Program-made: the position numbers and the translations under genes
The notes under the pieces: model-generated
Database searches by the model: none
What the model was told of the DNA's origin: nothing
The model's input: only the letters and a program-made list of their open reading frames with translations
Source: Euborellia annulipes
Lineage: Eukaryota > Arthropoda > Insecta > Dermaptera > Anisolabididae
Assembly: GCA_023213315.1 (NCBI GenBank)
Contig: JAKCPI010031751.1
Location: forward strand, 62,001-126,000
Direction: 5' to 3'
Length of the DNA: 64,000 bases
Shown: positions 2,935 through 64,000 of the stretch, piece by piece
Position numbering within the stretch: position 1 is the stretch's first letter
Layout of the letters: each line of letters opens with the position of its first letter

Positions 2935-3179
2935 TACCCCCTCCCCCCGAGAAACACCTCTGGATCCGCCCTTGATGCCGAGAGACATATAATTCAAAAC
3001 ACCACACGACGCTTTAAGAAGATCTTGGTCTGTTTCAAGAAATAAATATTTTTCCATGTAAAAACAACTATACCTCCTAATATATTGTATTTAAATGAGT
3101 TAAAGTCATATCATATGCTATGATGCCGAAAAAAAAAAATTTCTCTTGTTTATAAATTTGACATTTTAAACCTCTCCCC

Positions 3180-3330
3180 TTAGTGACCGAGAGGTTATAG
3201 ATGTTGACAAATATCAATAAATGAAAATCTTAAACCCATGGGGTGCGGATCCCAGGCAGTCCAATGAATATTTATTTAAGCAATTGTTCAGTGCGACCAT
3301 CACACCAGATTTTTATATTATTTCTTTTAT
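3180..3330 (+). repeat. SINE with Ser/Leu-tRNA-like head, fragment
   Basis: It begins TGACCGAGAGGTTATAGATG, a class II tRNA-like A-box region, and then has GGTGCGGATCCCAGGCAGTCC, the same B-box/CCAGGCAGTCC junction as the other SINEs. It runs into a Helentron-like 3' hairpin end (CATCACACCAGATTTTT) at about 3300-3318. Confidence 0.6.
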
Positions 3331-3910
3331 TTAATGACACTCTTTTGTCACTATTTATACTATTATGTGGTCTATATCAATTTTCATAAATGTTGAGATC
3401 GGTTGAGTTCAACATTGCTGAAAAATTTTAAATAAATTAAAAGTTTTTTTTTATCTTTTATATAGGTCTACCTCAGTCTTTTAAGTTGTTTGGGCTTTAT
3501 TTATTTATTTTATAACTTTTAAGATAACATTATAGGATTTTAAATATTTTCTTAACCCAATGATATCAGTTACTCTAAACTTTTTGTGTAGTATTTAAGT
3601 CACCCTCCTAAAATGCGACGAGGTGTTAACTTTTTTTTTCTTAAATAATTGATCTGAGATGTTATAAATTTTTAAAATATTTCACTGCAGTCTGGTTATT
3701 CAACTTTCTTTTGTTGGTTTAATGTGTTAAGAGTGTGAAATTTTAAAGAGATTTTTTTATATTATTATACATCAGCGATGTCCGATGTCTATATTGATAG
3801 CCGAACTTTCTAAAAAGTGATAATATAATTAAAAAAGTAAAATGTATTTGAATTAATTCTAAAATAACAAAAAATTTTCGCTATTTGAATAACAATTAAC
3901 TATATTTGAA

Positions 3911-4179
3911 GCCACGGGGCGTGGTGTTAGGTTGCGTGCAACCTCATCCAAACGTGGGGTTCGGACAGGCAGTCGATGATTTATTTAAGCCATCTGGATA
4001 CCAGATGGCTTAAATAAAAATGCCTGGACCCTATCTATATATATAAAAATTATATATAAATTCATAAATAACGGTTATCGTAAATGTCTTATATGGCCTG
4101 AGTCCGAAAAGACAGGTGAAGTGTGTGGAGGTGAGGTGAAGAGAAAAAAGGTGAAGTTAAAAAAAAAAAAAAAAAAAAA
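3911..4179 (+). repeat. tRNA-headed SINE with target-site duplication
   Basis: This copy is bounded by a 13-bp direct repeat AACTATATTTGAA (3898-3910 and 4180-4192) and ends in a long A-run, so it is an L1/RTE-style retroposed insertion. It has a tRNA-like head (GGTTGCGTGCAACC, GGGGTTCGGA), the CAGGCAGTC junction, the TCTGGATACCAGA palindrome and the tail GGCCTGAGTCCGAAAAGAC. Confidence 0.85.
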
Positions 4180-4894
4180 AACTATATTTGAAAACGTGCT
4201 TTTTTTTAATTACATTTATGTTTCAATAGTGATTTATTAAATTCCGGCCAAAAAATTTCATTTAAAAAAAGCTTTCATCAATAACTACTAAAATATCTAA
4301 ATTTATTTTTTTATTAGTTTTTTAGACTCTAAAAGATACGCATCTTATTTTATCTTATACTATTAAACGAGAAATGTACGTTTATTTGTTTGTTTGTTTG
4401 TAAGCATATCGGTTCTCGAAAACGGCTCTAACGATTTTTTTTCAAATTTAAAAAATATAGGCCCTACTATTTCTGACACCAATATGAAATTGCACTAGGT
4501 TTCATTTTTGGGAAAATTTGGGTACTAGTATTTACTGATGTACTTTTTTTCACTTTTCGAAATTCCCTTTACCGATTTCTTTCAAATTCTAAATATTTAC
4601 TATTTGCAGTAAGCTTATAGAAAATAAATTACGCTAGGTCTCGTCTTATGGGAAACTTTGTGTATGTACTTTTTACTGATGTACTTTTTTAGTTTTTTCC
4701 ACTCCTCCTGAAACTCACTTTAAAGATTTCTTTCAAATTCTAAATATTTTCTATTTCTGGTATACATAACATACTTCGTCAGGCCTTTGGAAGACTTCGA
4801 ATACTAGTTCTTTATTGATGTACTTTTTTAGCTTTTTCCAATTTTATCAAACGAAAAAACCACCGAGCTCCAGCTCGGTCATTGCGGAACTTAT

Positions 4895-5099: not shown

Positions 5100-5296
5100 A
5101 ACAAATTATATTAATAAGAGGGTAGAAAATGAGAGAGAAATGATTTTCTTTATTTATTTAATTCGCACGGCTTTCCCAGCTCTGAAGATAGTTCAAACAC
5201 AGAACCGAAACATCAGCTATGTGGATTAAATAAATAAAGAAAAAACCTTAGCTGCATTTCTTATTTTCTACCCTCTTATTAATATAACATCACAAC
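5100..5296. mobile_element. Palindromic element with hammerhead core
   Basis: Inverted arms (ATTAATAAGAGGGTAGAAAA at the left, complement at 5263-5286) surround a hammerhead-like core at 5178-5218: CUGAAGA, a GUUC/GAAC stem II, GAAAC, and an AGCU/AGCU stem I. The stem III bases read ACAU instead of ACGU, so this copy is probably inactive. Confidence 0.6.
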
Positions 5297-5791
5297 TATA
5301 AATTGCGTTTTAAAACAAATTAGTTTTGTAGACACTTAGTAGACATTTATCTTATCCTATTATAAACCATAATCAGCTGAAAACTTCTTCAGGACTATAG
5401 GCCTATGCGTTTTGTTATGTCCTAAATTTCAACTAAAAATAATAATATATTAGACCAATATTTACACACACTGTTTTCCACAAATCTTTGTTTGACATCC
5501 AGACAAGGGTTTCTGGGAAACCGAATGTCAGTATTTCTGTCATTTATTTTGCACCGATAGATCCCCCAATTATAAACTTGCTATCTCTGTTCATTCTGCC
5601 CTCCACCCTCCACTTCGGCGCTGATTAGATCGACCATATAATACATGAATATAAATTTGAAATATAACTTTGACGTTGCCCGTATTTGTCTGAAAACTGG
5701 GACTAAATAATTTGCTTACTTATTGTCCATCAAGAGAGAATCTTGATAAATTAAACATAACCCCTTCATTTCCTAATTATTTTCATAAAAT

Positions 5792-6082
5792 ATGTTCGAA
5801 GTAGTGGCTGTGAGATGTGAAGATGGATAATTATGGGCAGGAGCAGCAATAAATAGACTCTGTATGCAGATTCAATCACCGGAGACGTTTCGGTTCCTTT
5901 TATTTAAGAACCATCTTCAGTTCTTACTAGAAATATACATATAATATACACTGTTAATATTATATGTATATTTCTAGTAAGGACTGAAGATGGTTCTTAA
6001 ATAAAAGGAACCGAAACGTCTCGGTGATTGAATATGCATACAGAGTCTATTTATTGGCTGCTCCTGCCCATAATTATCCATC
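5792..6082. mobile_element. Palindromic hammerhead element with 14-bp target duplication
   Basis: It is flanked by TATTTTCATAAAAT at 5778-5791 and 6083-6096. The two arms are near-perfect inverted repeats of about 130 bases meeting near 5950. Each arm holds CUGAAGA, a GGUUC/GGAACC-type stem II and GAAACGUC (plus strand about 5978-6028, minus strand about 5884-5930). Stem I is poorly paired. The long target duplication indicates insertion by target-primed reverse transcription. Confidence 0.75.
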
Positions 6083-6158
6083 TATTTTCATAAAATTTAA
6101 AACTGTAATAAATTTTTTTTTTACTCTTTTCGGCATCTTGGGCCATGAGGCCATCAGA

Positions 6159-7392: not shown

Positions 7393-7621
7393 AAAAAAAT
7401 CTGGTGTGCTGGTCGCACATCATACAGTTCTTACTTTCAGTAAGAGTTGTGTTCTATCCTTGTCACACCAGATTTTTTGTGTCGACACATATTTAGTTTC
7501 CGTCAGTACGGTACATTCGAATTCAAGATGTAAAATTTATAAACATGGGAAAATATTTCCATTCCTCCTATCTTTTCTATGAAGTAGAAGAGCAAAGTGT
7601 GCTTCAAAATAGTCAAATATG
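7393..7621 (-). mobile_element. Helentron-like repeat, 3' part, interrupted
   Basis: It opens with the terminal hairpin TCTGGTGTG...CACACCAGA (about 7399-7473) and continues through GTCGACACATATTTAGTTTCC into the TCTCCTATC-like block. It stops where a palindromic element begins. Confidence 0.65.
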
Positions 7622-7870
7622 GGACCATTTTCAGGGCCAGATTAATGTCTGAATAAAAATATATTAATCCTCGCCAAGTTATATTGGGCATGCACAATTG
7701 TAAGTAGCTCAAAATTTATTATTGTCATACCATGGACAGAGAGTGAATGTCATTCACATTATCATGATTGAGCAACAGTACTTACAATTGTGTATGCCCA
7801 ATATAACTTGGCGAGGATTAATATATAACCTGGCCCTGAAGATGGACCCATATGTGACCGAAAGTCGGCT
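7622..7870. mobile_element. Palindromic element with degenerate hammerhead core
   Basis: Arms containing CCTCGCCAAGTTATATTGGG and its complement converge near 7735. On the plus strand at about 7825-7870 there is CUGAAGA, a weak stem II and GAAAGUC, with a short stem I (GGCC/GGCU). The ACGU stem III motif is broken, so this is a decayed member. Confidence 0.5.
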
Positions 7871-10818: not shown

Positions 10819-11500
10819 ATCAAATGTGCCCAAACTTAGTGACAAACTTGACAAGTAGAAATTATATATTTAATAGAGCAGGGGAAATATGTTTGACATT
10901 TTTTTTGAAATGTACATTGGTTTATAATTATATCTCACTCAGGGGATCACACCTTCTGGGTACATGAATGGCTTCGTTCTAATCGAACTAAGGCAAGCAT
11001 TTCTTTCATTTCTTATGTCACCTTTCCTTTGCATCAGACGTAATTTAACTAAATACAATAAACAGCGAAAATGGTATTTTGATAATTGTATTTTGTAAAA
11101 AGCCCTATGGCCTCGGCTAAAAGGGCAAGTAAAAAAAAAAAAAAAAAAAAACAGCGAGAATAACAGAAAATTATAAAAAAGTGTCTAATTATTTTAAATT
11201 AATTTATTGTAATTAAAATATTTACTATTTTTCATAAAAATCATTCAAAACTGTTTTTTTTTTTTACATTCTCTTACCTCTATATATATGTTAACATATA
11301 GAGAAAGTATTGGATTCATGTCAAAAATTCGATGTCATGATTTTGACGGATATACACGTTTTGACAGTATTTACTAGTATTTTAGTGATGTACTTTTTCA
11401 GTTTTTTTTTTTTCCAATTTTCTCAAAATCCTCTCTAACGATTTTGATTAAAATTCAAAAATCAATTATTTTTTAGATGCTCTTTAAAATGTATATTCTC

Positions 11501-11936
11501 AAGATATGAGTAGGATGGCAGCCAGGAGAGAAATCGGACAAAAATTCAAACAATTTTTATCTAATTTTATTACGATTGCCGACGTTTCGGACGCAAATCG
11601 CGCCCTTCCTCAGGATAGTTAATGAAATACAGATGGACGTATTTTTTTAATTAAAATTTAATGCGAAAGGCGTCAATGAATGACAGTGAAATATATACAG
11701 TACAAAACAATGCATCTCACACCCGTGGATTATGTTTTTATATTGTTAATTAAAAAAATACGTCCATCTGTATTTCATTAACTATCGATTGTCCTGATGA
11801 AGGGCGCGATTTGCGTCCGAAACGTCGGCAATCTTAATAAAATTAGATAAAAATTGATTGAATTTTTGTTTGATTTCTCTCCTGGCTGCCATCCTACTCA
11901 TATCTTCTAATAGTTCAGCCATCATGCCAATCTTAT
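11501..11936. mobile_element. Palindromic hammerhead element with 11-bp target duplication
   Basis: It is bounded by TGTATATTCTC at 11490-11500 and 11937-11947. Inverted arms (GGATGGCAGCCAGGAGAG outward, TACGTCCATCTGTATTTC inward) surround a unique centre. The plus-strand hammerhead at 11787-11833 is complete: CUGAUGA, stem II GGGCGC/GCGUCC, GAAACGUC, stem I GAUUGUC/GGCAAUC. The right end has an extra unpaired 30-base tail, giving the asymmetry expected of a reverse-transcribed copy. Confidence 0.85.
11787..11833 (+). ncRNA. Hammerhead ribozyme motif, type I topology
   Basis: The conserved core is present: CUGAUGA (11794-11800), a 6-bp stem II with one G-U pair, GAAA (11819-11822), then C-G-U-C. 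Stem I forms 7 pairs (one G-U) between bases flanking the core and bases after the predicted cleavage site. Stem III is only the self-complementary ACGU, which could pair between two RNA copies. Predicted cleavage is after the C at 11826. Confidence 0.75.
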
Positions 11937-12442
11937 TGTATATTCTCATTTTGCCCTCAAAATTGTTTGAAGCACTTTACTCTTGAAGCCATTCTAATAT
12001 ATCGGCGGAAACTAAATATATCTCGAAACAAAAAATCTGGTGTGACCACACCTTAGGTAAAAAGCAAGTTGTGTGCTCTGCGACCAGTCACACCAGATTT
12101 ATTTAAAGAAAAAATATTGTTTGAAAATAGAGCTAAGACATGATTTGAATTTTATCAAATCGTATTTCGATAGCGTTGGGCATCTGGTCTTGAAAGCTGG
12201 GATAATGTGCCAAGAGCCTCCTCCCAAGGGATAAATGCATCAAACCCTTTCGAGTGCTAATTCAGCACTTCCTTGCTGCCTCTTCTCTAAGGGACCAATT
12301 TATTGCACACATTTTACTGTATTTAAAATTATTATTTTATAGTATATTTACATAAAAATTGTTGTTATGTAAAAATATACCTGGTATAGTAAATTTCAAA
12401 ATAAATATCAACAAATGATGAGTGAAACTACAACTAAATATG

Positions 12443-33193: not shown

Positions 33194-33218
33194 AAGGTGT
33201 CCCTTATTTTTCGATTTT

Positions 33219-33918
33219 ACTTTCTCTTACCTATGTATATATGTAATATATATATAGAGAGAAAGTATTGGTTTCATGTCAAAAATTCGATGTCGAGATT
33301 TTGATGGATCTTCACGTTTTGAGGTCCCCTGAATCCAAAAAAGTGGTTTTCGCGACATGGTCTGTCTGTGGGTGGGTGGGTGGGTGGGTGGGTGTGTGGG
33401 TGGGTGTGTGTGTGTGTGTGTCTGTGTTCACTTTTAAGCATGAAGGAATTGAGCTATGAGGCTGAAATTTTATATATAAGTTAAACACCCCCGGGACCGG
33501 AAAAATAAGCTTTTAATCAAAATCGGCCAAAAAGTACTAGTACTTTACTGATGTACTTTTTCAGTTTTTTTCGATTTTCTCAAAATTCGCTCTAACGATT
33601 TTGATTAAAATTCAAAAAATCAATTATTTTTTAGATGCTCTTTCAACTGTATATTCTCGTTTTGCCCTCAAAATTGTTTGAAGACCACTTTACTCTTGCA
33701 CTCCATAGAAAAGATAGGAGAAATGGTTGCCATGGTAACAAAATATAAATATTTTCCCATACTTATAAATTTTACATCTGAATTCAAATATTCCCTACTG
33801 CCGGGAACTAAATACATGTCGACACAAAAAATCTGGTGTGACAAGCACAGTACACAACTTTCGATTACCGAAGGTAAGAGAAAGTTGTGTGCTGTGCGCC
33901 AGTCACACCAGATTTTTT
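33219..33918 (+). mobile_element. Helentron-like repeat, full length
   Basis: A complete copy: ACTTTCTCTTACC 5' end, 5' hairpin, TTTTCGCGACATGGTCTGTC, a GTGGGTGG/GT microsatellite, TTGCCATGGTAACAAAATAT, subterminal GGTAAGAGAAAGT, terminal hairpin, and CACCAGATTTTTT at 33918. The next copy starts at the very next base. Confidence 0.93.
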
Positions 33919-36152
33919 ACTTTCTCTTACCTATGTATATATGTAATATATACCGGGTGGGCCATTAGTGCGTGGACGGAAGATTGTGGGCTTATTAAGC
34001 GACATTTTAAAATTTTCTCGATGGAGCATAATGTGGGGCCTTTAGAGCTACAACTTAAAAATATTTTTGTTCCAATTGCACCTAATATACAGGGTGGTCC
34101 ATATCAAAGTTATGTTTTTTTAAATGGAACGCCCTGTATATTATTGCATATTTGGATTCTGCGGCCAATTTTAGTATGAGTTTATGTCATGCAATGTATT
34201 CTAAAACAAACCGTTTAGCCGCAAATCGGGCTTTTGTGAAAAAACTGCTGTCTGGAAAAAATTGAATATCTCGCGAACCATAAAACTTAGGGAGTGTTCT
34301 TTTGGGATCTTACTAACCATGAAATGAACTAATGTAGGCCAGATGGGTAACCCGGAATTATTCTTGTGTTGGGAGATATGGCTATGCCAATTTGGAAAAC
34401 TTCAATCATGGATAACTTCCTTATTTCAAATGGAACATGCTACTTTTTTTATGCCATGGGACGTAAAATTTAATTCGCTTTCAGATGATATAAGGTTGTC
34501 TATATCTATCTTTGGTAATTTTATTTTTATTTCAAAATATCTGATTAATTTGACTTACGAATGGAGAAAACAATTAAAATAACAATCCAAATGCAAAATA
34601 AAATTGTATTGCAATAATAAATGGAAAAGATATTGTTAAATATTCGAAAATGTATTTAAATTTTCTTTAAAAAAATTTATTTAAACTCCTCAAAGAAGTC
34701 CCGCTTGCTCGAATTAGGGTTATGATTTGTCAACAAGATGGCGCACCTTTTAACCTGAACGTAACCCTAATTTCTTTTTCTAGAAGTTTAAATAAATGAT
34801 ATTAAAGGAAATTTAAATATAGTTTCGAATATTTAGCATATCTTTTCCATTTATTACCATTTTATTTTGCATTTGGATTGTTATTTTAATTGTTTTCTCC
34901 ATTCGTAAGTCAAATTAATCAGATATTTTGAAATAAAAATAAAATTACCAAAGATAGATATAGACAACCTTATATCATCTGAAAGATAATTAAATTCTAC
35001 GTCCCATGGCATAAAAAAAAGTAGCATGTTCCATTTGAAATAAGGAAGTTATCCATGATTGAAGTTTTCCGAATTGGCATAGCCATATCTCCCAACACAA
35101 GAATAATTCCGGGTTACCCATCTGGCCTACATTAGTTCATTTCATGGTTAGTAAGATCCCAAAAGAACACTCCCCTAAGTTTTATGGTTCGCGAGATATT
35201 CAATTTTTCCAGACAGCAGTTTTTTCACAAAAGCCCGATTTGCGGCTAAACGGTTTGTTTTAGAATACATTGCATGACATAAACTCATACTAAAATTGGC
35301 CGCAGAATCCAAATATGCAATAATATACAGGGCGTTCCATTTAAAAAAACATAACTTTGATATGGACCACCCTGTATATTAGGTGCAATTGGAACAAAAA
35401 TATTTTTAAGTTGTAGCTCTAAAGGCCCCACATTATGCACCATCGAGAAAATTTTAAAATGTCGCTTAATAAGCCCACAATCTTCCGTCCACGCACTAAT
35501 GGCCCACCCGGTATATAGAGAGAAAGTATTGGTTTCATGTCAAAAATTCGATGTCGAGATTTTGATGGATCTTCACGTTTTGAGGTCCCCTGAATCCAAA
35601 AAAGTGGTTTTCGCGACATGGTCTGTCTGTGGGTGGGTGGGTGGGTGGGTGGGTGTGTGTTCAATTTTAAGGATGAAGGAATTGAGCTACGAGGTTGAAA
35701 TTTTATATTTAAGTTAAACACCCCCGGGACCGGAAAAATAAGCTTTTAATCAAAATCGGCCAAAGAGTACTAGTACTTTACTGATGTACTTTTTCAGTTT
35801 TTTTCGATTTTCTCAAAATTTGCTCCAACGATTTTTTTTAAAATTCAAAAATCAATTATTTTTTAGATGCTCTTTAAAATGTATATTCTCATTTTGCGAT
35901 TGAAATCTTCTGAAGACCACTTTACTCTTGTTCTCCATAGAAAAGATAGGAGAAATGGTTGCCATGGTATCAAAATATAAACATTTTGCCATACTTATAA
36001 ATTTTACATCTTGAATTCAATTGTACCCTACTGCCGGAAACTAAATACATGTCGACACAAAAAAATCTGGTGTGACAAGCACAGTACACAACTTTCGATT
36101 ACCGAAGGTAAGAGAAAGTTGTGTGCTGTGCGCCAGTCACACCAGATTTTTT
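33919..36152 (+). mobile_element. Helentron-like repeat split by a 1.56-kb palindrome
   Basis: Bases 33919-33952 and 35512-36152 together form one full-length copy; its 5' end abuts the previous copy and its 3' end abuts the next (36153). The insertion is at a TA inside the 5' hairpin. Confidence 0.92.
33953..35511. mobile_element. Large foldback element with TA duplication
   Basis: It begins CCGGGTGGGCCATTAGTGCG and ends with its complement. Arms of about 730 bases are almost identical and are separated by a unique centre of about 100 bases (34686-34784). Comparison with intact neighbours shows duplication of TA only, which fits the Tc1/mariner-like group. Internal secondary ends TATACAGGGTGGTCCATATC and complement lie about 140 bases inside each tip. 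No transposase frame was recognised. Confidence 0.88.
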
Positions 36153-36845
36153 ACTTTCTCTTACCTATGTATATATGTAATATATATATAGAGAGAAAGT
36201 TTTAGATTCATGTCAAAAATTCGATGTCGAGATTTTGATGGATCTTCACGTTTTGAGGTCCCCTGAATCCAAAAAAGTGGTTTTCGCGACATGGTCTGTC
36301 TGTGTGTGTGTGGGTGTGTGGGTGTGTGTGTGGGTGGGTGTGTCTGTGTTCAATTTTAAGCATGAAGGAATTGAGCTATGAGGCTGAAATTTTATATTTA
36401 AGTTAAACACCCCCGGGACCGGAAAAATAAGCTTTTAATCAAAATCGGCCAAAGAGTACTAGTACTTTACTGATGTACTTTTTCAGTTTTTTTCGATTTT
36501 CTCAAAATTTGCTCCAACGATTTTTTTTAAAATTCAAAAATCAATTATTTTTTAGATGCTCTTTCAAATGTATATTCTCATTTTGCGATTGAAATCTTCT
36601 GAAGACCACTTTACTCTTGTATTTCATAGGGAAGATAGGAGAAATGGTTGCCATGGTAACAAAATATAAATATTTTCCCATACTTATAAATTTTACATCT
36701 GAATTCATATGTTCCGTACTGTCGGGAACTAAATATATGTCGACACAAAAAATCTGGTGTGACAAACACAGAACACAACTTTCGATTACCGAAGGTAAGA
36801 GAAAGTTGTGTGCTGTGCGCCAGTCACACCAGATTTTTTTTTTTT
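36153..36845 (+). mobile_element. Helentron-like repeat, full length
   Basis: Third member of the head-to-tail run. It is complete from ACTTTCTCTTACC to the CACCAGATTTTT end, with a GT/GGGT microsatellite near 36303-36350. Confidence 0.93.
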
Positions 36846-38924: not shown

Positions 38925-39606
38925 AAAAAAATCTGGTGTGACTGGCGCACAGCACACAACTTTCTCTTACCTTCGGTAATCGAAAGTTGTGTACTGTGCT
39001 TGTCACACCAGATTTTTTGTGTCGACATGTATTTAGTTTCCGACAGTAGGGTACAATTGAATTCAAGATGTAAAATTTATAAGTATGGGAAAATATTTAT
39101 ATTTTGATACCATGGCAACCATTTCTCCTATCTTTTCTATGGAGTACAAGAGTAAAGTGGTCTTCAGAAGATTTCAATCACAAAATGAGAATATACATTT
39201 TATAGAGAATCTAAAAAATAATTGATTTTTGAATTTAAAAAAAAATCGTTGGAGCAAATTTTGAGAAAATCGAAAAAAACTGAAAAAGTGAATCAGTAAA
39301 GTGCTAGTACTTTTTGGTCGATTTTGTTCAAAAGCTTCGTGTCACGTCCCATGGGGGTGCCTAACTTAAATATAAAATTTCAACTTCCTAGCTCTTTTCG
39401 TTCTTGAGATATTTTGTTCACAGACACATACACACACACACACACAGACAGACAGACAGACAGACCATGTCGCGAAAACCACTTTTTTGGATTCAGGGGA
39501 CCTCAAAACGTGAAGATCCATCAAAATCTCGACATCGAATTTTTGACATGAATCCAATACTTTCTCTCTATATATATATTACATATATACATAGGTAAGA
39601 GAAAGT
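38925..39606 (-). mobile_element. Helentron-like repeat, full length
   Basis: A complete copy from the 3' hairpin (38932-39013) to the 5' end GGTAAGAGAAAGT at 39606, with an AC/CAGA microsatellite near 39425-39463. Confidence 0.93.
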
Positions 39607-39609
39607 AAA

Positions 39610-41140
39610 AAAAAAAGTAAATAAAAACCACTTAAATTACTAATCTAAAAGTTTCGTGTTCAGAACTTGATTTCCTCCTTTTCTACATGGTGTTCAAATT
39701 CATTTAAGATGTTCATTAACCTTTGAACAACTAACCACTTAAGTTTGGTTCGCCAGAGGAAATTACGTTAAAAGGAATTTAAACGTATTTTCTATGAAAC
39801 AAAGTTAGCATCAGCAGGTGAGTTAGATGATAATTAAAAAATAAATGTACCAGGAAGTATAAAAAAGTAATCGTATAATTTTAAGAATTTAAGTGTTGTT
39901 TTTTCTTTTCGGCTACTTAGGCCATTATTAACGATTTATAATTTATTCCACGCCACAAAAAAGTTGAAAAAATATAAATTTCTAGAATGCCTTCACGTCT
40001 ATTGTTATTTGTTTGATCAGAGTGACATTTGAAATTGTCTTATGTCTAATGCAATCATACAAATAGTGATCATTAATCACCCGAGAGGGTCTATTAAAGT
40101 TGACTTGCACGCACTTTCACCACTTGATACGAGGGTTGGTTGTAATCTAAAACAATTTGAATACCCCACCCTAATAATCATGACAATTAAACGCTTCTGT
40201 TACTTTTGATTATTCTGTTTATTATTTTTTTTTTTTTAATTGACAGTGAGATATTTCAAAAAATATTCATCGATTGAATTGATCAAATCAATCACAGAAA
40301 GACTCTGATTGTGCGCAATGTTTATAAATAACTCCGTTGGGCCAAAGGGCTGTATCGAACGTGCTTGCTCGATTGTCCAGGACAATCTGGATAATTTTTT
40401 TTAATAAATCATATACTGGATACAAAACAAATTCCGATTACAAGGAACGTGATATCAGAAGACGGACATTTTTATCATTGACAATAAATATTTGAAAATG
40501 GTATAGTACCGATAGAATTGAGCGGCGTATTTTGGACCGCTTTTGTTACGTCGGGGTATTGAAAAAATACCTTATGAATGAAAAGTTGAAATTTTTTATT
40601 TCATAAAAATAAAATGTTGATATAAAGACACGATCACTTGGGAACTATTTGTTCAAAAAGTATTGTTCTATTATACGAAAAAATTTTGTGCTCTACGCTT
40701 GTCGTATAAAAATAAAGAATCGTTGGCGAGGGAAAAAAAAGAAACAAATGGCGAATCAATAATATTTGAAGTTGGAACATATAAAAAAAAAAAAAAAAAA
40801 ACAGTGAAAACAAAACGAAACAATATTTTTTTTTATTAATATATATAAAAAGGACAACAAAGTTGGAAAACTTTAGAAAAATGTTATTAATATTTGAGAT
40901 ATTCTAATAAAAAATACTATTATGCATATTATAATATATAACATTTATAAAGTATTCATTGTTAAAAGATCAATGAAAATCAACCAAATACATTAAATTA
41001 TTTGCTACCATTCTGACATCTCTTGGCAAATTTTCGTAATAGGTGTTTTTTTGGCTTACTTTTTAAGACACACAACGCCCTCTTCTGGGGAAAAACATGC
41101 GTAACATTTACACTACTAAACCCCCTTAAAGAACCACTTT
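39610..41140. other. Stretch without recognised features
   Basis: AT-rich. One isolated tail-like motif, CTTTTCGGCTACTTAGGCC (39907-39925, minus orientation), suggests an eroded SINE end. No exon recognised. Confidence 0.4.
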
Positions 41141-44278: not shown

Positions 44279-44424
44279 TATATAGTAATTTGCACCCACC
44301 CTGTATATATATACAAAAAACTTCAATTTTCTCGTTGTCGGTGTTGGAATATTTTTTCTGCGGACACCCTGTTCAAAAGTAGATAAATTAGAAATTAGAT
44401 TCACCAAATTAAATTTATTTATTA

Positions 44425-45095
44425 CTTTCTCTTACCTATGTATATATGTAATATATATATAGAGAGAAAGTATTGGATTCATGTCAAAAATTCGATGTCG
44501 AGATTTTGATGGTTATACACGTTTTGAGGTCCCCTGAATCCAAAAAAGTGGTTTTCGCGACATGGTCTGTCTGTGGGTGTGTGGGTGTGTGGGTGTGTGT
44601 GTGTTCAATTTTAAGCATGAAGGAATTGAGCTAGGAGGTTGAAATTTTATATTTAAGTTAAACACCCCCGGGACCGGAAAAATAAGCTTTTAATCAAAAT
44701 CGGCCAAAGAGTACTAGTACTTTACTGATGTACTTTTTCAGTTTTTTCGATTTTCTCAAAATTTGCTCCAACGATTTTTTTTTAAATTCAAAAATCAATT
44801 ATTTTTTAGATGCTCTTTAAAATGTATATTCTTATTTTGTGATTGAAATCTTCTGAAGACCACTTTACTCTTGTATTTCATAGGGAAGATAGGAGAAATG
44901 GTTGCCATGGTAACAAAATATAAATATTTTCCCATACTTATAAATTTTACATCTGAATTCAAATGTTCCGTACTGTCGGGAACTAAATATATGTCGACAC
45001 AAAAAATCTGGTGTGACAAGCACAGTACACAACTTTCGATTACCGAAGGTAAGAGAAAGTTGTGTGCTGTGCGCCAGTCACACCAGATTTTTTTG
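44425..45095 (+). mobile_element. Helentron-like repeat, full length, in an intron
   Basis: A complete copy with both hairpins and a GTGGGTGT microsatellite (44573-44605). It lies between the two GPCR-like exons. Confidence 0.93.
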
Positions 45096-48066: not shown

Positions 48067-49233
48067 TACATAGAAATATAAAGTTTCAGCCCAATTGGAG
48101 GCGATTTAGTGGTGCAAAACATGGCCTAAATTTTAGAAAAATCGAATTTTTTTCAGTTTTTTCAACTTTGGACACCACTAATAGATAACTTTTAGCTGTG
48201 TTTTGCACCAATAAGCCATCTCCGTTTGGGCTCAAACTTTAGTATAGACCTCTATTTCTATGTATTTCAACTCTCTGCATATTTTTAAGGAGTAACGACT
48301 TAAAAATCTAGAAAATTCAAAATAAGAGTCGATTTTGAGGAGATTATTTATTAAAATTTAATTTTCTCTATACCTCTAAAACTCGAGCTAAGTAGCGCTA
48401 CCACATACCCAGGAATAGCCCTAAATTTCAATGCAACAAATAAAAACTTTTTGTTGACCTGTATAAAATTTCTATTTCTATCAAAAACATTGTTTAATTG
48501 GAATTCATTATTTTTAGAATTATAGTAAATGAAAATTATTTCATTTGCAATAACAAATGAACGACTGAGGTTTCTTTTATTTGTTCAAATATTTTATTTT
48601 TTCCTTTAAAATAATCCTAATGATTTTTTCTAAGTGTTTGCATTATAAATATAATAAATTTATATTCAGTAAAAAAGAAAATAAATTTATTTATTTGAAA
48701 ATTAAAAAAAAATTTTTTTTAATAGATGAAAATATAAATAAAGAAAATTTAATTTTTTTTTTAAATTAAAATATAAATTAATTTTTAACTTTATTTTGCC
48801 AACTGGTCTTGATTTTGCCAACTCGATCCGACCTGGGGGGGAGACTCCCCCCCATCCCCCCCCTTGGCTACGCCCCTGGGTCGGAGAGAGTTACATAAAT
48901 AGGATATAAAAATACAGACAGCTAAAAATAAAAACACTCTCGATACTCTGTGAACGTTCAGACGTTTCGGGTAAAATTTATTCACCCATCCTCAGTGAAC
49001 AGTTCTAGTGAGAGAGAGTTATGTCATTATAATTATACATAGATGACTTTAGTTATTCTATGTATTCTATTTAGATAATATGATGATAAATACTGGCTTG
49101 AAAATTTTGTAAATATTATAAAAATATATAAATTTAATATTATAAAAATAAATTAAATATTATAAAAAAAATTTCAAGCCTGTATTTATCATCATATTAT
49201 CTAAATAGAATAACTAATGTCATCTATCTATAA

Positions 49234-49461
49234 CATTGGCGTAGCAAGAAATTTTTGATGGGGGGATCAAGAAATTTTTTTCAAAAATTTAAGATTATTT
49301 TAGGGTATTTATAAATCATTTTGGTTTGTTTTTTTAGCTAGAGTAAATTATTATCTTTTACTTTCTCTTACCCTATGTGAAATATAATTTGTATTAAATA
49401 TCTAGTCATGACTTGGATCCCATGGGGGGGGGGTGAACCAACCCCCCTGGCTACGCCTATG
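49234..49461. mobile_element. hAT-type MITE
   Basis: The ends CATTGGCGTAGCAAG / CTGGCTACGCCTATG and the duplication ATCTATAA (49226-49233, 49462-49469) define it. It carries a solo Helentron-like 5' end (ACTTTCTCTTACCCTATGTG) at about 49358. Confidence 0.85.
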
Positions 49462-49501
49462 ATCTATAATTATAATGACTTAATTCTCTCTCTCTAGAAC
49501 T

Positions 49502-49546
49502 GTTCACTGAGGATGGGTGAATAAATTTTACCCGAAACGTCTGAAC
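49502..49546 (+). ncRNA. Hammerhead ribozyme motif
   Basis: GUUCA - CUGAGGA - U GGGU loop ACCC - GAAA - CGUC - UGAAC. All core positions are canonical (N7 is G). Stem III is the self-complementary ACGU. Predicted cleavage is after 49541. Confidence 0.7.
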
Positions 49547-49744
49547 GTTCACAAAGTATTGAGAGTGTTTTTATTTTTGGCTGCCTGCAGTTTCATATCC
49601 TATTTATATAACTCTCTCCGTGCCATATTAGTTGCTACATTTGAATATTTTTCTACTGATTATTATTAGTACTGATGATTTTATAATTTTGTTTTAATAT
49701 TTTTTAGAGATTTTTATAAAATAAATAGTACATGAAAAGTAGAA

Positions 49745-50441
49745 CAAAAAATCTGGTGTGACTGGCGCACAGCACACAACTTTCTCTTACCTTCGGTAAT
49801 CGAAAGTTGTGTTCTGTGCTTGTCACACCAGATTTTTTGTGTCGACATATATTTAGTTCCCGACAGTACGGAACATTTGAATTCAGATGTAAAATTTATA
49901 AGTATGGGAAAATATTTATATTTTGTTACCATGGCAACCATTTCTCCTATCTTCCCTATGAAATACAAGAGTAAAGTGGTCTTCAGAAGATTTCAATCGC
50001 AAAATGAGAATATACATTTTAAAGAGCATCTAAAAAATAATTGATTTTTGAATTTTAAAAAAAATCGTTGGAGCAAATTTTGAGAAAATCGAAAAAAACT
50101 GAAAAAGTACATCAGTAAAGTACTAGTACTCTTTGGCCGATTTTGATTAAAAGCTTATTTTTCCGGTCCCGGGGGGTGTTTAACTTAAATATAAAATTTC
50201 AACCTCCTAGCTCATTTCCTTCATGCTTAAAATTGAACACAGACACACCCACACACACACCCACCCACACACACACCCACCCACACACACACAGACAGAC
50301 CATGTCGCGAAAACCACTTTTTTGGATTCAGGGGACCTCAAAACGTGAAGATCCATCAAAATCTCGACATCGAATTTTTGACATGAATCCAATACTTTCT
50401 CTCTATATATATATTACATATATACATAGGTAAGAGAAAGT
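49745..50441 (-). mobile_element. Helentron-like repeat with known empty site
   Basis: A complete copy with AC/ACCC microsatellite (50240-50297). The opposite arm of the surrounding palindrome (46880-46920) preserves the pre-insertion sequence: GTAG, seven A, TTTAT. Here GTAGAA precedes and AAAAATTTAT follows the element, so nothing was duplicated or lost. Confidence 0.95.
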
Positions 50442-50564
50442 AAAAATTTATAAAATTGGAATGAAATTAACAGGTTTGTAATATTGTAGTAGTGTACAAT
50501 ATTGAAGTAGTATATACAATAAGGTAATTTGAATATTTAATTTAATATTTTAAGAAATGTAGAA

Positions 50565-52429: not shown

Positions 52430-53269
52430 GTAACAAAAACCTCGTCACAGAATTGAATAAAACTTTAAATATATCTCGACACAAAAACTCTAGTGTGACA
52501 AGCACAGTACACAACTTTCTCTTGCCGAAGGGTAAAATTTTTTTTTAGTTAGTTTTGTATATTTACAAAAATATTCCTACCAAATTTTCGGTCTTTAAGA
52601 GTATATTTTAACAATTTGTCATATTTTTCTCTCAATTTTAGTAAATTAGTCAAATATCCTTTCGAGGCTCTTCTTTGTATGCCTGGAGGTCTTTTTCGGC
52701 CATTAATTGCAATAATGTCAATATTTCATATTGAAATAGACGGGTGGTTTCTCTCTTTCCCATTAATTACTAAAATTTAATATCTTTTTTATTAAATGAT
52801 GATTAAACAAAGAAAAAAATATTAAAATTTTAATTTACTTTTGCTACTTAAATATAAGTTGCCTCTCTTCATTTATTTCTTTAATCCAATAATCAATATA
52901 TATTATTCAAGATGATTTGAGACTTTATTTCAGTCTCATGTTTAAGATCAGGGGAGATCTAAAAATAAAACTCCATCTCTGGCCTCTCCCACTCTCTCGT
53001 ATTGACGGAATGTATTTTCGGAGGGTCGAAGGTCGCCAAGTGCTTCAACATCGATTTGACCATCTTCTTACTTATATTCAAGCATCGAATTCTCTAAATG
53101 GACATTTTGTCACCTCCTCTTCTTTTTTATTCAAATCCCCCCCCCCCTCCCTGTTCAATTCTATCTACTCAAGTCACTCAAAGTCATTCAAAATTAGGCA
53201 TTTTTTTTATTAAAAGGGATTTTATCAAAGTTGAATGTTCCTATTCGAATTTTTCATTGAATTTTTTTT

Positions 53270-53946
53270 ACTTTCTCTTACCTATGTATATATGTAATAT
53301 ATATATAGAGAGAAAGTATTGGATTCATGTCAAAAATTCGATGTCGAGATTTTGATGGATCTTCACGTTTTGAGGTCCCCTGAATCCAAAAAAGTGGTTT
53401 TCGCGACATGGTCTGTCTGTGTGGTGGGTGGGTGTGTGTGTGTGTGTGTGTGTTCAATTTTAAGCATGAAGGAATTGAGCTATGAGGCTGAAATTTTATA
53501 TTTAAGTAAAACACCCCCCGGGACCGGAAAAATAAGCTTTTAATCAAAATCGGCCAAAGAGTACTAGTACTTTACTGATGTACTTTTTCAGTTTTTTTCG
53601 ATTTTCTCAAAATTTGCTCCAACGATTTTTTTTTTTAATTCAAAAATCAATTATTTTTTAGATGCTCTTTCAAATGTATATTCTCATTTTGCGATTGAAA
53701 TCTTCTGAAGACCACTTTACTCTTGTGTTTCATAGGAAAGATAGGAGAAATGGTTGCCATGATAACAAAATATAAATATTTTCCCATACTTATAAATTTT
53801 TATCTGAATTCAAATGGACCGTACTATCGGGAACTAAATATATTTCGACACGAAAAATCTGGTGTGACAAGCACAGTACACAACTTTCGATTACCGAAGG
53901 TAAGAGAAAGTTGTGTGCTGTGCGCCAGTCACACCAGATTTTTTTT
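53270..53946 (+). mobile_element. Helentron-like repeat, full length
   Basis: A complete copy from ACTTTCTCTTACC to CACCAGATTTTTT, with a GT microsatellite at 53418-53453 and both hairpins. Confidence 0.93.
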
Positions 53947-59350: not shown

Positions 59351-59839
59351 ACTGTTGTTCTTCTCCGTTGCCAGACCCCCCGGCATATTTAGTAATTAAT
59401 CGGCCTAAATTTCATATTATTATCGGACTATTTTTATAAGGAATACGGGAAAAATTATTTGTTGTTTTCTTCTCTCTTTTACCAATATATTTATTTATTT
59501 ATTTTAGAAATATTTATAAAAAAAAATTGGTGTGACTGTCGCACAGCACAAAACTTTCTCTTACCTTCGGTAATCGAAAGATGTGATCTGTGCTTGTCAC
59601 ACCAGATTTTTTGTGCCGACATATATTTAGTTTCCGACAGTACATTAGAATTTAAGATGTAAAATTTATAAACGTGGGAAAATATTTATATTTTGTTGAA
59701 TAGTAGAACGTGGCTGTAGCTGATATCTTGAATAGGAAAGAGGATTGAGCCTCTATTTGGTAATAAACACTCTTTATAATCAGGATTCGCAGGGACTTTG
59801 CAGCCAGGAGATTAAATAAAAAATCTTTTATTTAATTTT

Positions 59840-59888
59840 TATTTGCCGACGTTTCGGTCGCCAATCACGACCTTCATCAGGGCAAATA
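59840..59888 (-). ncRNA. Hammerhead ribozyme motif
   Basis: Mirror copy of the motif at 60769-60817 with identical core, stem I and stem II. It lies on the opposite strand in the left arm. Confidence 0.8.
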
Positions 59889-60033
59889 TTGTTAATTATA
59901 CACGATCTTAGGTATCTTATTATTCATTGCAATTAAACACAATTTCTTTTTAACTTTGATATGTACAAAATGTTATCATTTACTTGCTGCTCGGAGGTCT
60001 CTTATTCAAAAATTTTTTGTACATATCAAAGTT

Positions 60034-60705
60034 AAAAATCTGGTGTGACTGGCGCACAGCACACAACTTTCTCTTACCCTCGGTAATCGAAAGTTGTGTA
60101 CTGTGCTTGTCACACCAGATTTTTTGTGTCGACATATATTTAGTTTCCGACAGTACGGTTCATTCGATTTTCAAGATGTAAAATTTATAAGTATGGGAAA
60201 ATATTTATATTTTGATACCATGGTAACCATTTCTCCTATCTTTTCTATGGAGTACAAGAGTAAAGTGGTCTTCAGAAGATTTCAATCACAAAATGAGAAT
60301 ATACATTTTAAAGAGAATCTAAAAAATAATTGATTTTTGAATTTTAAAAAAAATCGTTGGAGCAAATTTTGAGAAAATCGAAAAAAACTGAAAAATTGCA
60401 TCAGTAAAGTACTAGTACTCTTAGGTCGATTTTGTTCAAAAGCTTCGTGTCACATCCCATGGAGGTGCCTAACTTAAATATAAAATTTCAACCTCCTAGC
60501 TCTTTTCGTTCTTGAGATATTTTGTTCACAGACACACAGACAGACACACAGACATACAGACAGACAGACCATGTCACGAAAACCACTTTTTGGATTCAGG
60601 GGACCTCAAAACGTGAAGATCCATCAAAATCTCGACATCGAATTTTTGACATGAATCCAATACTTTCTATATATATATTACATATATACATAGGTAAGAG
60701 AAAGT
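60034..60705 (-). mobile_element. Helentron-like repeat nested in the hammerhead palindrome
   Basis: A complete copy. The left arm of the palindrome keeps the empty site (CAATTTCTTTTTAAC). Here the flanks are GTT before and AAAAAGAAATTG after, again without duplication. Confidence 0.93.
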
Positions 60706-60768
60706 AAAAAGAAATTGTGTTTAATTGCAATGAATAATAAGATACCTAAGATCGTGTATAATTAACAA

Positions 60769-60817
60769 TATTTGCCCTGATGAAGGTCGTGATTGGCGAC
60801 CGAAACGTCGGCAAATA
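60769..60817 (+). ncRNA. Hammerhead ribozyme motif, best preserved
   Basis: UAUUUGCC (stem I) - CUGAUGA (60777-60783) - stem II GGUCG loop CGACC - GAAA (60802-60805) - CGUC - GGCAAAUA (stem I, perfect 8 bp). Stem III is the 4-base self-complementary ACGU, so full activity would need a second RNA copy. Predicted cleavage is after the C at 60809. Confidence 0.82.
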
Positions 60818-61419
60818 AAAATTAAATAAAAGATTTTTTTATTTAATCTCCTGGCTGCAAAGTCCCTGCGAATCCTGAGTAAATCTCCACAGCCAAAAAA
60901 CATCAACTCTTTATAATTTGTTACCATGGCAACCATTTCTCCTATCTTTCCTTTGAAGTATAAGAGTAAAGTGGTCTTCAGAAGATTTCAATGGCAAAAT
61001 GAGAATATACATTTGAAAGAGCATCTAAAAAATAATTGATTTATGAATTTTAAACAAAATCGTTGGAGCGAATTTTGAGAAAATCGAAAAAAACTGAAAA
61101 AGTGTATCAGTAAAGTACTAGTACTTTTTGGCCGATTTTGTTTAAAAGCTTATTTTCACGTTTCAGGGCGATTCTTAACTTAAATATAAAATTTCAACCT
61201 CGTAACTAAATTCCCTCAAACACACACACAGACAGACCATGTCACGAAAACCACTTTTTTGGACTCAGGGGACCTCAAAACGTGTACATCCATCAAAATC
61301 TCGGCATCGAATTTTTGACATAAATTCAATACTTTCTCTATATATTACATATATACATAGGTAAGAGAAAGTAAAAATCAACACAAAATAGTGGTTAAAG
61401 GAATTTCAAGAACAGTATT

Positions 61420-62314: not shown

Positions 62315-62956
62315 AAAAAAATCTGGTGTGACTGTCGCACAGAACACAACTTTCTCTTAACTTTGGTAATCGAAAGTTGTGTTCTGTACTTGTCACACCA
62401 GATTTTTCGTGTCGACATATATATAGTTTCCGCCGATATTTTAGAATTCAAGATATAAAATTTATTAACATGAGAGAATATTTATATTTTGTTACCATAG
62501 AAACCGAACCATTTCTCCTATTCTTCCTATGAAGAACAAGAGTATAGTGGTCTTCAGAAGATTTCAATGATAAAATGAGAATATATACTAAAAAGTATCT
62601 AAAAAAAAATTGATTTTTGCATTTTAATCAAAATCGTTAGAGCGAATTTTGAGAAAATCGAAAAAAACTGAAAAAGTACATCAGTAAAGTACTAGCACTT
62701 TTTGGCTGATTTTGATCAAAAGCTTATTTTCACGCCCTAGGTAGGTAAGTGTTTAACTTAAATATAGAATTTCAACCTTCTAGCTCAATTCCTTGATGCT
62801 TTAAATTGAACAGAGACAGACAGACACACAGACATACAGACCATGTCGCGAAAACCACTTTTTTGGATTCAGGGGACCTCAAAACGTATATATCCATCAA
62901 AATCTCAATGTATATGTACTATGTATATTAACATATACATATAGGTAAGAGAAAGT
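62315..62956 (-). mobile_element. Helentron-like repeat, diverged
   Basis: It runs from the TCTGGTGTGACTGTCGCACA hairpin to GGTAAGAGAAAGT, with the CAGACAGACACACAGACATA microsatellite. The 5' hairpin is shortened. Confidence 0.88.
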
Positions 62957-62959
62957 AAC

Positions 62960-64000
62960 AAAATAAAAAATCATTGTGTGGTTTTATGAAACCACGATGC
63001 AAGTGAAACTTTTTTCGGATCGTAGACGTTTAACTGAAAATTTTCAGAAAATTATTCAATTAAGGGTATTAAAATCGCGTTTTTAATCTTAACTTAATTG
63101 GAAAATGATGAATGATAATGGGAAATCAATAGACCCGTGTTAAAAACTGTGAACAATATTCATTTAGGAACTAGCCGCGCCGACCGCCGAAAGGAAGGCT
63201 TCGCTCCCCTGGAGCCCCCCACCACCTGGCTCGGGCCCGCCTGCTGTAAATGTAAATTAACAATAGAAAGGCGAGGGGATAATAATTTTAAATTTCAACA
63301 TTTTATACCCTAATCAAAATTAAGTTCCATCCAGAACCGAGCTCATGATCCCTGGATGATGTCATATCTGACCACTACTCCAAAGAACACTCACCAAGAA
63401 ATCTTTTAAAACGATCAAAGCAATGATATCTTCATAAATAATTTTTTTTAATAAGTAGCTGTATAAACAATCCCCAAAATGTAAATAACGAAAATGAGTT
63501 ATTTTTCTGCAAATATTTAAACAAAATTCTCAAATGAAAGATGATAGGAAATAAAATAAAAATAAAAAGAGCTCAAATGTGTTTGTTTTCGTTTATTTAA
63601 TAAGTGGTTAAATATTGAACAAAAATCTGAATCATTTAGAGAAGCTCTGTCCTTGAAAAATTATATTTTCAAACAAGAACTTTTTACTAAAAATCCTAAT
63701 TAAAAAGCAGAATTTGAAATTTATTTTGCTAATACAATCACGGGCAAAAAATATCAAATAGTTATAAAAAATTGATTTAAAATGTAAAGGAACCAAATTA
63801 ATGATTGATAAATTAAATAAGATTCTTAAAGTGACTATTACTTTAAAAAATAAAAAAATTTGTTCTCCCCTTTTTTTATCTTGAAAAAAATGAGAAAATA
63901 TGAAAAAAAAAAAAAAAAAAATATTTAGAAGGAATGAATTGATTTTTTTTATTTTCAATTGGATGGTTTTGATCGCTGACAATATCCTCCTCATGACTTG
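62960..64000. other. Stretch without recognised features
   Basis: AT-rich with one GC-richer patch at about 63170-63250 that begins ACTAGCCGCGCCGACCGCCG, resembling the centre of the MITE at 54950. A 120-codon open frame on the minus strand at 63632-63994 is low-complexity. Confidence 0.4.

Follow-up and report, generated by a model that had tools for sequence, protein, structure and literature searches.

A Palindromic Hammerhead-Bearing Insertion of Euborellia annulipes and Its Probable Origin as a Non-Autonomous Penelope-like Element

Introduction

How does an element without a protein of its own come to lie in a genome as two mirror-image copies, each with a ribozyme motif? This question is raised by E1, a palindromic insertion of the dermapteran Euborellia annulipes. 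E1 lies in a stretch of 64,000 nucleotides (contig JAKCPI010031751.1 of GenBank assembly GCA_023213315.1, positions 62,001 to 126,000 of the forward strand). The whole stretch is called the window below, and all coordinates refer to it unless a locus is named. E1 is probably a non-autonomous insertion related to the Penelope-like elements (PLEs), in which two non-coding units of ~270 nt are joined head to head. The inverted head-to-head form is known among PLEs, and E1 and E2, a second palindrome of the window, both without an open reading frame (ORF) and both present in high copy number, are a Penelope insertion product and no exotic form.

Structure of E1

E1 proper occupies positions 59781-60905 and is bounded by a perfect 12-bp target-site duplication (TSD). 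Its parts are listed below. Hammerhead scores are from R1, a covariance model trained on 13 hammerheads from the same genome.

59769..59780: left TSD, perfect 12-mer ACTCTTTATAAT, which recurs at 60906-60917
59781..59970, minus strand (unit sense): left arm, tailless, inverted repeat of the right arm
59840..59888, minus strand: hammerhead, stem I to stem I; R1 58.4 bits (training row); predicted cleavage after C at 59848
59971..60014: 44-nt centre, mostly a further 5' part of the left-arm unit
60015..60033, plus strand: inner end of the right arm, from inverted-repeat comparison
60034..60710, plus strand: later insertion of the dispersed ~677-bp repeat R, foreign to E1, recognized from other copies in the window
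60711..60905, plus strand: remainder of the right arm, tailed, from inverted-repeat comparison
60769..60817, plus strand: hammerhead, stem I to stem I; R1 58.4 bits (training row) and pattern match; predicted cleavage after C60809
60852..60895, plus strand: stem-loop TGGCTG...CAGCCA around the putative inner start site of reverse transcriptase (RT), from RNA folding
60878..60905, plus strand: 28-nt tail, in the right arm only; the left arm ends opposite 60877
60906..60917: right TSD, the same 12-mer ACTCTTTATAAT

An initial annotation had placed the element at 59698..60909, with the start ~80 bp too far to the left. The duplication that it reported stands, but not as 13 bp with one mismatch. 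The middle of its interval, 60034-60710, belongs to the unrelated repeat R. R entered E1 after the insertion of E1, because the arms form an inverted repeat once R is left out: 59777-59970 and 60015-60038 plus 60711-60881 make a near-perfect inverted repeat of ~195 bp around the 44-nt centre. There are more than 10 copies of R in the window, counting partial ones, and 8 others span the part from 60034 to at least 60677. The ends of R are sharp (AAAAATCTGGTGTGAC ... GGTAAGAGAAAGTAAAAA), with identical limits in 6 other inspected copies, and a hairpin of ~92 bp is present at its 5' end.

The E1 unit is ~270-274 nt long and is ordered as 5' end (TCATTTGA), hammerhead (unit positions 135-167), putative RT-initiation stem-loop and tail. 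Its 3' end varies within a 12-nt stretch after the stem-loop. In E1 itself, the left arm reaches unit position 4 and the right arm begins only at 44. The TGGCTG...CAGCCA pair recurs in the right arm of E2, and the tailed left arm of E4, another palindrome of the window, has only GCTG...CAGC. Tested in three pieces, the stem-loop folds no better than shuffles; E1 alone gives a z of -1.38, which is not significant, and the E2 piece is too short.

The initial annotation reported no coding sequence, and no closed ORF of at least 150 aa, stop to stop, was found in the window. Having no ORF for RT and GIY-YIG, E1 is at most a non-autonomous Penelope derivative.

The Hammerhead Motif

The two hammerheads of E1 are identical on both strands (cores 59848-59880, minus, and 60777-60809, plus), while none is expected in shuffles. 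Stem I has 8 bp (TATTTGCC/GGCAAATA) and stem II has 5 bp (GGTCG/CGACC), as originally annotated. Stem III is just ACGU, 2 bp and palindromic. A single unpaired base lies between the core CUGAUGA and stem II. In the canonical type I hammerhead, stem II follows A9 without an extra base.

Covariation was analyzed in alignment A1, whose 13 rows were chosen by hand from 47 distinct ones with a stem II of at least 3 bp required; F8 and F9 are close relatives, so the rows represent fewer than 13 families. In stems I and II, 90% of the cells are paired and there are 41 two-sided changes, a result seen in 0 of 500 shuffles; slid controls give 9-17. Of five covariation measures, one does not exceed the shuffles: pairs changed on both sides number 8 against 7.1 (175 of 500). 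Three divergent rows with a poor stem I were first excluded and added later (G16 is misaligned and may be due to chance). With these three, 55 two-sided cells and 86.9% pairing are observed, again in 0 of 500 shuffles. Without any stem filter, stem I shows 3.94 of 5 pairs against 2.30 in shuffles, the largest value among 2000 shuffles being 3.0. U4, G5, A6, G8, A9 and GAAACGU are constant in 13 of 13 rows and C3 in 12, while N7 varies; the core letters are mostly fixed by the search pattern, and their constancy is partly by construction.

Because its stems covary across divergent copies, the motif is, as judged from sequence, a genuine class of hammerheads, whose stem II is preceded by a single additional base and whose stem III is a palindrome of 2 bp. 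The initial annotation had named conservation that ignores stem pairing as a sign against a ribozyme; the direct test indicates the opposite. From the window and the loci, 63 distinct cores were collected, many of them E1 or E2 variants, and 38 have a stem II of at least 4 bp. One extra base precedes stem II in 37 of the 38 and two in the remaining one; there is no case with zero. Stem III is palindromic in 35 of 37 distinct cores (ACGT in 31, ATAT in 4). This agrees with the dimeric ribozyme that had been read from the ACGU stem, and dimeric double-hammerhead Penelope ribozymes are cited in passages of PMC6466107.

The Rfam search proposed in the initial annotation went the other way. The Rfam hammerhead models gave no match to the window or the element at the gathering threshold or at E <= 10, only sub-threshold hairpin noise, which for Rfam's models speaks against a ribozyme. 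The extra base and the short stem III probably explain this silence.

An ATG is present in 27 of 37 cores, formed either from A6-U7-G8 or from A9, the extra U and G10.1. The registers differ, and the pattern looks as though a start codon that overlaps the ribozyme core had been retained.

Copies of E1 in the Genome

The genome-wide family search suggested in the initial annotation found 375 exact copies of the 41-nt E1 hammerhead in the 903-Mb genome, against 0 for the reversed control, and three more palindromes in the window. Among the 100 copies listed of the 375, 20 form 10 close pairs, 60-320 bp apart from start to start, and for the other 80 no exact partner is listed close by. All 10 pairs are in minus-then-plus order, that is, head to head. 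With no direct tandem among these, E1 was rejected as a metazoan retrozyme.

The 40 best matches to the tailed arm (E1 and L095-L133) were used as a sample of insertions. Two pairs of them have both flanks alike, leaving 38 distinct insertions. An inverted head-to-head partner arm is present in all 40 matches (38 of 38 distinct insertions), although that of L113 is partial and interrupted. The inverted dimer, which had been thought unusual, is thus the regular form among these E1 insertions, and head-to-head inverted pseudo-long terminal repeats (pLTRs) are described in passages of PMC3846280. L098 and L099 have the same flanks and TSD with different left arms; they are probably a single insertion seen in two alleles or in two versions of the assembly.

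In 33 of the 38 insertions the flanks share a word of at least 11 nt (11-16 nt, mostly 12-13; 87% A+T), in line with the target-primed insertion proposed before. The shared word need not abut the arms. At L107 the longest word is a target repeat, with a shorter abutting one visible, and the best words of L113, L114 and L132 lie away from the arms. A flank score of at least 12 is reached by 32 of 38 true pairings and by 2 of 1406 cross-locus pairings.

The arms end at two different places, one near unit position 234-245 and the other near 260-274, and the difference of roughly 30 nt is the tail. Exactly one arm is tailed in 40 of 40 measured loci. As 35 of these were picked with a tail-bearing query, those 35 exclude two-tailed insertions only. 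The measurement omits L119 and L130, whose outer left arm is truncated; L113, which is complex and has no TSD; L097 and L099, which repeat the flanks of L096 and L098; and L155, which is cut at the edge. Six loci (L154-L159) were taken from the list of exact hammerheads irrespective of the tail, and all five measurable ones have one tail, on the left in two. Their TSDs are 12-14 nt in four, and none is visible at L155 and L159. Among seven incidental pairs from other families, three have a candidate TSD (scores 9-11) and 27-30 extra nt on one side; these TSDs are individually weak, the cross-locus control reaching a score of at least 10 in 84 of 1406 pairings. A further pair has 14 extra nt on one side, and the remaining three are not readable.

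Inverted arms and TSDs would also be expected from a foldback- or MITE-like (miniature inverted-repeat transposable element) DNA transposon carrying a hammerhead-like sequence by chance. However, the ends are asymmetric with one tail, the inner ends are variably truncated, and the TSD words are not fixed and mostly 10-16 nt. Neither symmetric terminal inverted repeats nor a fixed TSD length is seen in E1. Furthermore, R1-model hammerheads sit in the pLTRs of L160, an RT/GIY-YIG element described below. A DNA transposon of this kind is hardly tenable as the source of E1.

Among 20 E2 loci, 16 are inverted dimers and four have no partner arm. Two of the four monomers (L142 and L145) carry their own TSD, read by eye. 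Because such monomers exist and most loci differ in their junctions, it seems that dimers arise during insertion and are not obligatory. The same two facts speak against the palindrome itself being the master, with a transcript across the whole inverted dimer copied as a single template. Such a master would account for the constant two-arm form of E1 and for the variants shared between arms (see below), yet it is highly improbable.

Origin of the Two Arms

In E1, 14 segregating substitutions are found in both arms of a locus, against 1.9 in permuted pairings (0 of 5000 permutations, 37 loci). In E2, 14 are shared and 10 are in one arm, the permuted expectation for sharing being 4.1 (0 of 5000; 14 loci after removal of two duplicates). 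Locus-private substitutions in E1 are mainly in a single arm (47 vs. 9), which is expected because mutations arise after insertion. Since segregating variants are shared far above random arm pairing, the two arms are, as a rule, copies of one source.

One way to obtain two arms from one source is fold-back self-priming, in which a cDNA started from the tail snaps back at its 3' end and copies itself into an inverted second arm. It accounts for the shared variants and the head-to-head order, and passages of PMC3846280 propose self-priming with an antisense template. The lengths of the arms bear on it. Of 40 loci, 17 have a longer tailed arm and 8 a longer tailless arm; in 9 both arms reach the 5' end, and in 4 both are matched internally. 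The four symmetric internal junctions are above expectation, as fold-back would have it: 0.3-0.7 are expected among the 40 loci (p = 5e-5 with 1 nt tolerance, 0.003 with 3 nt) and 0.4-1.1 among the 14 loci where truncation affects both arms (p = 0.00015 and 0.016). Two of the four (L129 and L133), however, fall on natural palindromes of the unit, and the support for matched ends is therefore weak. The excess of the tailless arm is 9-70 nt in the 8 of 40 E1 loci and 47 nt in the E2 locus L140. A folded-back single cDNA cannot supply it, so two cDNAs are needed at these loci unless the tailed arm was shortened later. Fold-back also gives no cause for the second arm ending before the tail, and it is unlikely as the origin of E1.

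Alternatively, two RNAs of one locus, for example a double hammerhead paired via the ACGU stem III, might each prime one strand. The resulting anatomy is the same, the shared variants follow if the RNAs load near their source, and the palindromic stem III of most distinct cores is consistent with such pairing. Neither the one-tail rule nor the excess of symmetric internal ends is predicted, and we regard two RNAs as doubtful, though less so than fold-back. This is a sub-version of the explanation preferred here and is covered by it as its less simple case.

The explanation that fits best is one RNA copied from both target strands, because it combines the same source, the one tail and the free lengths of the arms. 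As a tentative reading, short of an even chance, one RNA is copied twice and the order is fixed: an initial cDNA, begun at the outer site, includes the tail; the second has to begin at the inner site because the tail has already been copied; and the two are joined head to head.

There is little sign of ribozyme cleavage in these templates. The start lies upstream of the predicted cleavage site in 39 of 40 tailed arms and in 38 of 40 tailless arms, and arm starts do not pile up at the site, with only 1 of 40 E1 loci within 3 nt of it (L096, unit position 170 vs. 168). Arm starts near unit positions 1-13 depend on 5' variants, and L100 is ambiguous. In the E2 locus L149, the arm starts at 168 and cleavage is predicted after 169. 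Since arm starts show no pile-up, the RNA templates for insertion appear to be mostly uncleaved, as for PAc, a PLE discussed below.

Coding Penelope Elements

Among 150 scored of 710 candidates, 118 matches to GIY-YIG were found at E <= 1e-3, with open frames up to 852 aa. L160 has an ORF of 849 aa that encodes RT (2e-12) and then GIY-YIG (2e-5), which is the Penelope order. Hammerheads are present in both of its pLTRs, at 466-516 just before the ORF and at 3398-3448 in the 3' repeat, each with 23.4 bits in R1 (E 1.3e-4) and with an AUAU stem III. The relation to PLEs raised in the initial annotation is borne out by these hammerheads and by the inverted pLTR anatomy. The autonomous relatives that it suggested searching for were found as the class of L160; no coding element with the pLTR of E1 was found.

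Neighboring GIY-YIG matches are in minus-then-plus order within ~5 kb on nine contigs (C8739, C5672, C18298, C4577, C4726, C5102, C15649, C13254 and C10122). Head-to-head insertion may also occur in long copies of Penelope. Same-strand neighbors are observed on C14340 and C13254.

Two other open frames were considered. The ORF of L098 near the E1 locus belongs to a long interspersed nuclear element (LINE), with RT and Exo_endo_phos_2. The open frame of L101 (608 codons, 2945-4768, minus strand) has no Pfam match.

Other Features of the Window

The three further palindromes are as follows.

11502..11936: E2, palindromic; TSD TGTATATTCTCA at 11490-11501 and 11937-11948; tail on the right arm
11573-11621, minus strand: E2 hammerhead, stem I partly deleted
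11786-11834, plus strand: E2 hammerhead, intact
5792..6083: E4, palindromic; TSD ATTTTCATAAAAT at 5779-5791 and 6084-6096; tail on the left arm
5876-5928, minus strand, and 5976-6028, plus strand: E4 hammerheads, weak stem I
48882..49620: E3, older palindromic pair, with hammerheads at 48953-49003 (minus) and 49499-49549 (plus)

A TSD was looked for around E3 and none was found. In total, R1 has 11 matches in the window at E <= 1.4e-5, which are four head-to-head pairs and three single ones. The paired matches are mostly training rows or near copies of them, and the three single ones are outside the training set. The single matches, at 5174, 7828 and 28124 (plus strand; E 6.7e-6 to 1.4e-5), have no matched inverted partner, and the one at 7828 overlaps the end of a self-inverse stretch, 7612-7858. 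Another region of 1.6 kb, 33947-35517, matches its own reverse complement at 93% and has no hammerhead-model match.

Further long matches to R are located as follows.

33215-33917, 35512-36151, 36148-36838, 38927-39611: long matches to R
44419-45092, 49747-50446, 53265-53943, 62317-62961: long matches to R

E1 and E2 each adjoin copies of R or sit within them.

Comparison with Known Elements

Features of Penelope found in E1 are the inverted pLTRs with one tail, the short AT-rich TSD and the minimal hammerhead in the pLTR; the ORF for RT and GIY-YIG is lacking. The closest likeness is with Penelope elements of Adineta vaga. According to passages of PMC3846280, these have head-to-head inverted pLTRs, TSDs of 8-10 bp and a 31-bp tail, optionally on one of the pLTRs; palindromes are present at the inverted junction, and a few non-coding sequences are captured between solo pLTRs with TSDs. 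E1 shares the inverted head-to-head arms, the TSD and the tail on one arm. The Adineta vaga elements in those passages are mostly ORF-bearing and of low copy number, whereas E1 and E2 lack an ORF, have many copies and occur mostly as inverted dimers. The same passages favor self-priming on an antisense template. The word hammerhead is absent from the text of PMC3846280.

PAc is a Poseidon PLE of the lizard Anolis (PMC11167929). Its purified protein cuts and extends both strands, starts reverse transcription at two sites that have the tail between them, and shows no strand preference in vitro. It has a hammerhead at the ORF start and AT-rich targets, and unprocessed RNA is its main substrate. 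PAc is coding and tandem in arrangement, whereas E1 is ORF-less and inverted. The main text of PMC11167929 describes neither ORF-less inverted dimers nor a rule of one tail per insertion.

In minimal type I hammerheads of PLEs, helix III is lost and cleavage is of the dimer type; thousands are dispersed in non-coding DNA and some are in pLTRs of PLEs (passages of PMC7761336 and PMC6466107). Their scattered copies are noted as having an unknown role in a passage of PMC7761336. The dispersed copies of E1 and E2 are mostly arms of inverted-dimer insertions. Metazoan retrozymes, in passages of PMC7229834, are short non-coding direct tandem repeats with canonical type I hammerheads and circular RNAs, probably mobilized in trans. 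E1 resembles the retrozymes of these passages as a short non-coding retroelement with a hammerhead that would be mobilized in trans, and differs from them in being inverted and in having the minimal hammerhead.

In the open-licence literature that was searched, no high-copy ORF-less family that is usually an inverted dimer, no one-tail rule and no test of the arm source were found. The strict hammerhead pattern matched 0 contigs of a viral collection, and the loose pattern matched 84 stretches of the viral and bacterial collections, 80 of which were listed as loci. As hammerheads they were rejected on the basis of stem I: only L080 has three contiguous stem I pairs, and no stem II is seen in it by eye. 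The bacterial match L001 looks like ordinary bacterial sequence in the part inspected, and L002 was assessed by the stem I pairing check alone.

Proposed Mechanism of Insertion

From the class of L160, we infer an RT and GIY-YIG protein of a coding Penelope element as the mobilizing enzyme of E1. This protein would bind the unit RNA in trans and cut an AT-rich target on its two strands, with the cuts ~12-13 bp apart. Each 3' end of the target would then prime a cDNA on the unit RNA, one beginning at an outer site at the tail end and the other at an inner site ~30 nt upstream. The two cDNAs would finally be joined at their 5' (unit) ends. Both would come from the same source RNA, and the simplest case would be one molecule copied two times. 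The mobilization in trans, the order of events and the single template are what we infer here beyond the observed arms and ends.

Several observations weigh against this reading. The pLTR of L160 is unlike that of E1, and no coding element with the pLTR of E1 itself was found. Cleavage and the RNA stages are predicted from DNA sequence. Among 26 E1 carriers of a segregating variant, 12 hold it in one arm only, and the shared variants could alternatively reflect a pair of RNAs from one locus, or arms that gene conversion has made alike. E2 has the loci without a partner arm. As the case of L098 and L099 illustrates, some arms could have been changed by deletions after insertion or by the assembly of palindromes from short reads. 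At 40 head-to-head junctions, microhomology is seen in just 10, neither microhomology nor extra bases in 4, and extra bases in 26. The centers of L117, L118, L120 and L121 contain runs of T or A of ~11-28 nt that are absent from the unit. These look like untemplated or slipped synthesis where the cDNAs meet.

Implications

R2 and LINE-1 prime on one strand. If one RNA is indeed copied twice in the fixed order given above, the palindrome would mark target priming on two strands, unlike in R2 and LINE-1, and the scatter of minimal hammerheads as mirror pairs in animal genomes would be understood. At least part of the dispersed minimal hammerheads are explained as arms of ORF-less Penelope insertions.

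The value of the E1 family is the record of integration held by hundreds of short copies, of which the sampled ones are inverted dimers. Many of them can be read as products of integration, with the TSD, two RT start sites, the junction and the source variants of both arms. With such a record, the choice among self-priming, two RNAs and one RNA copied twice becomes a question of counting.

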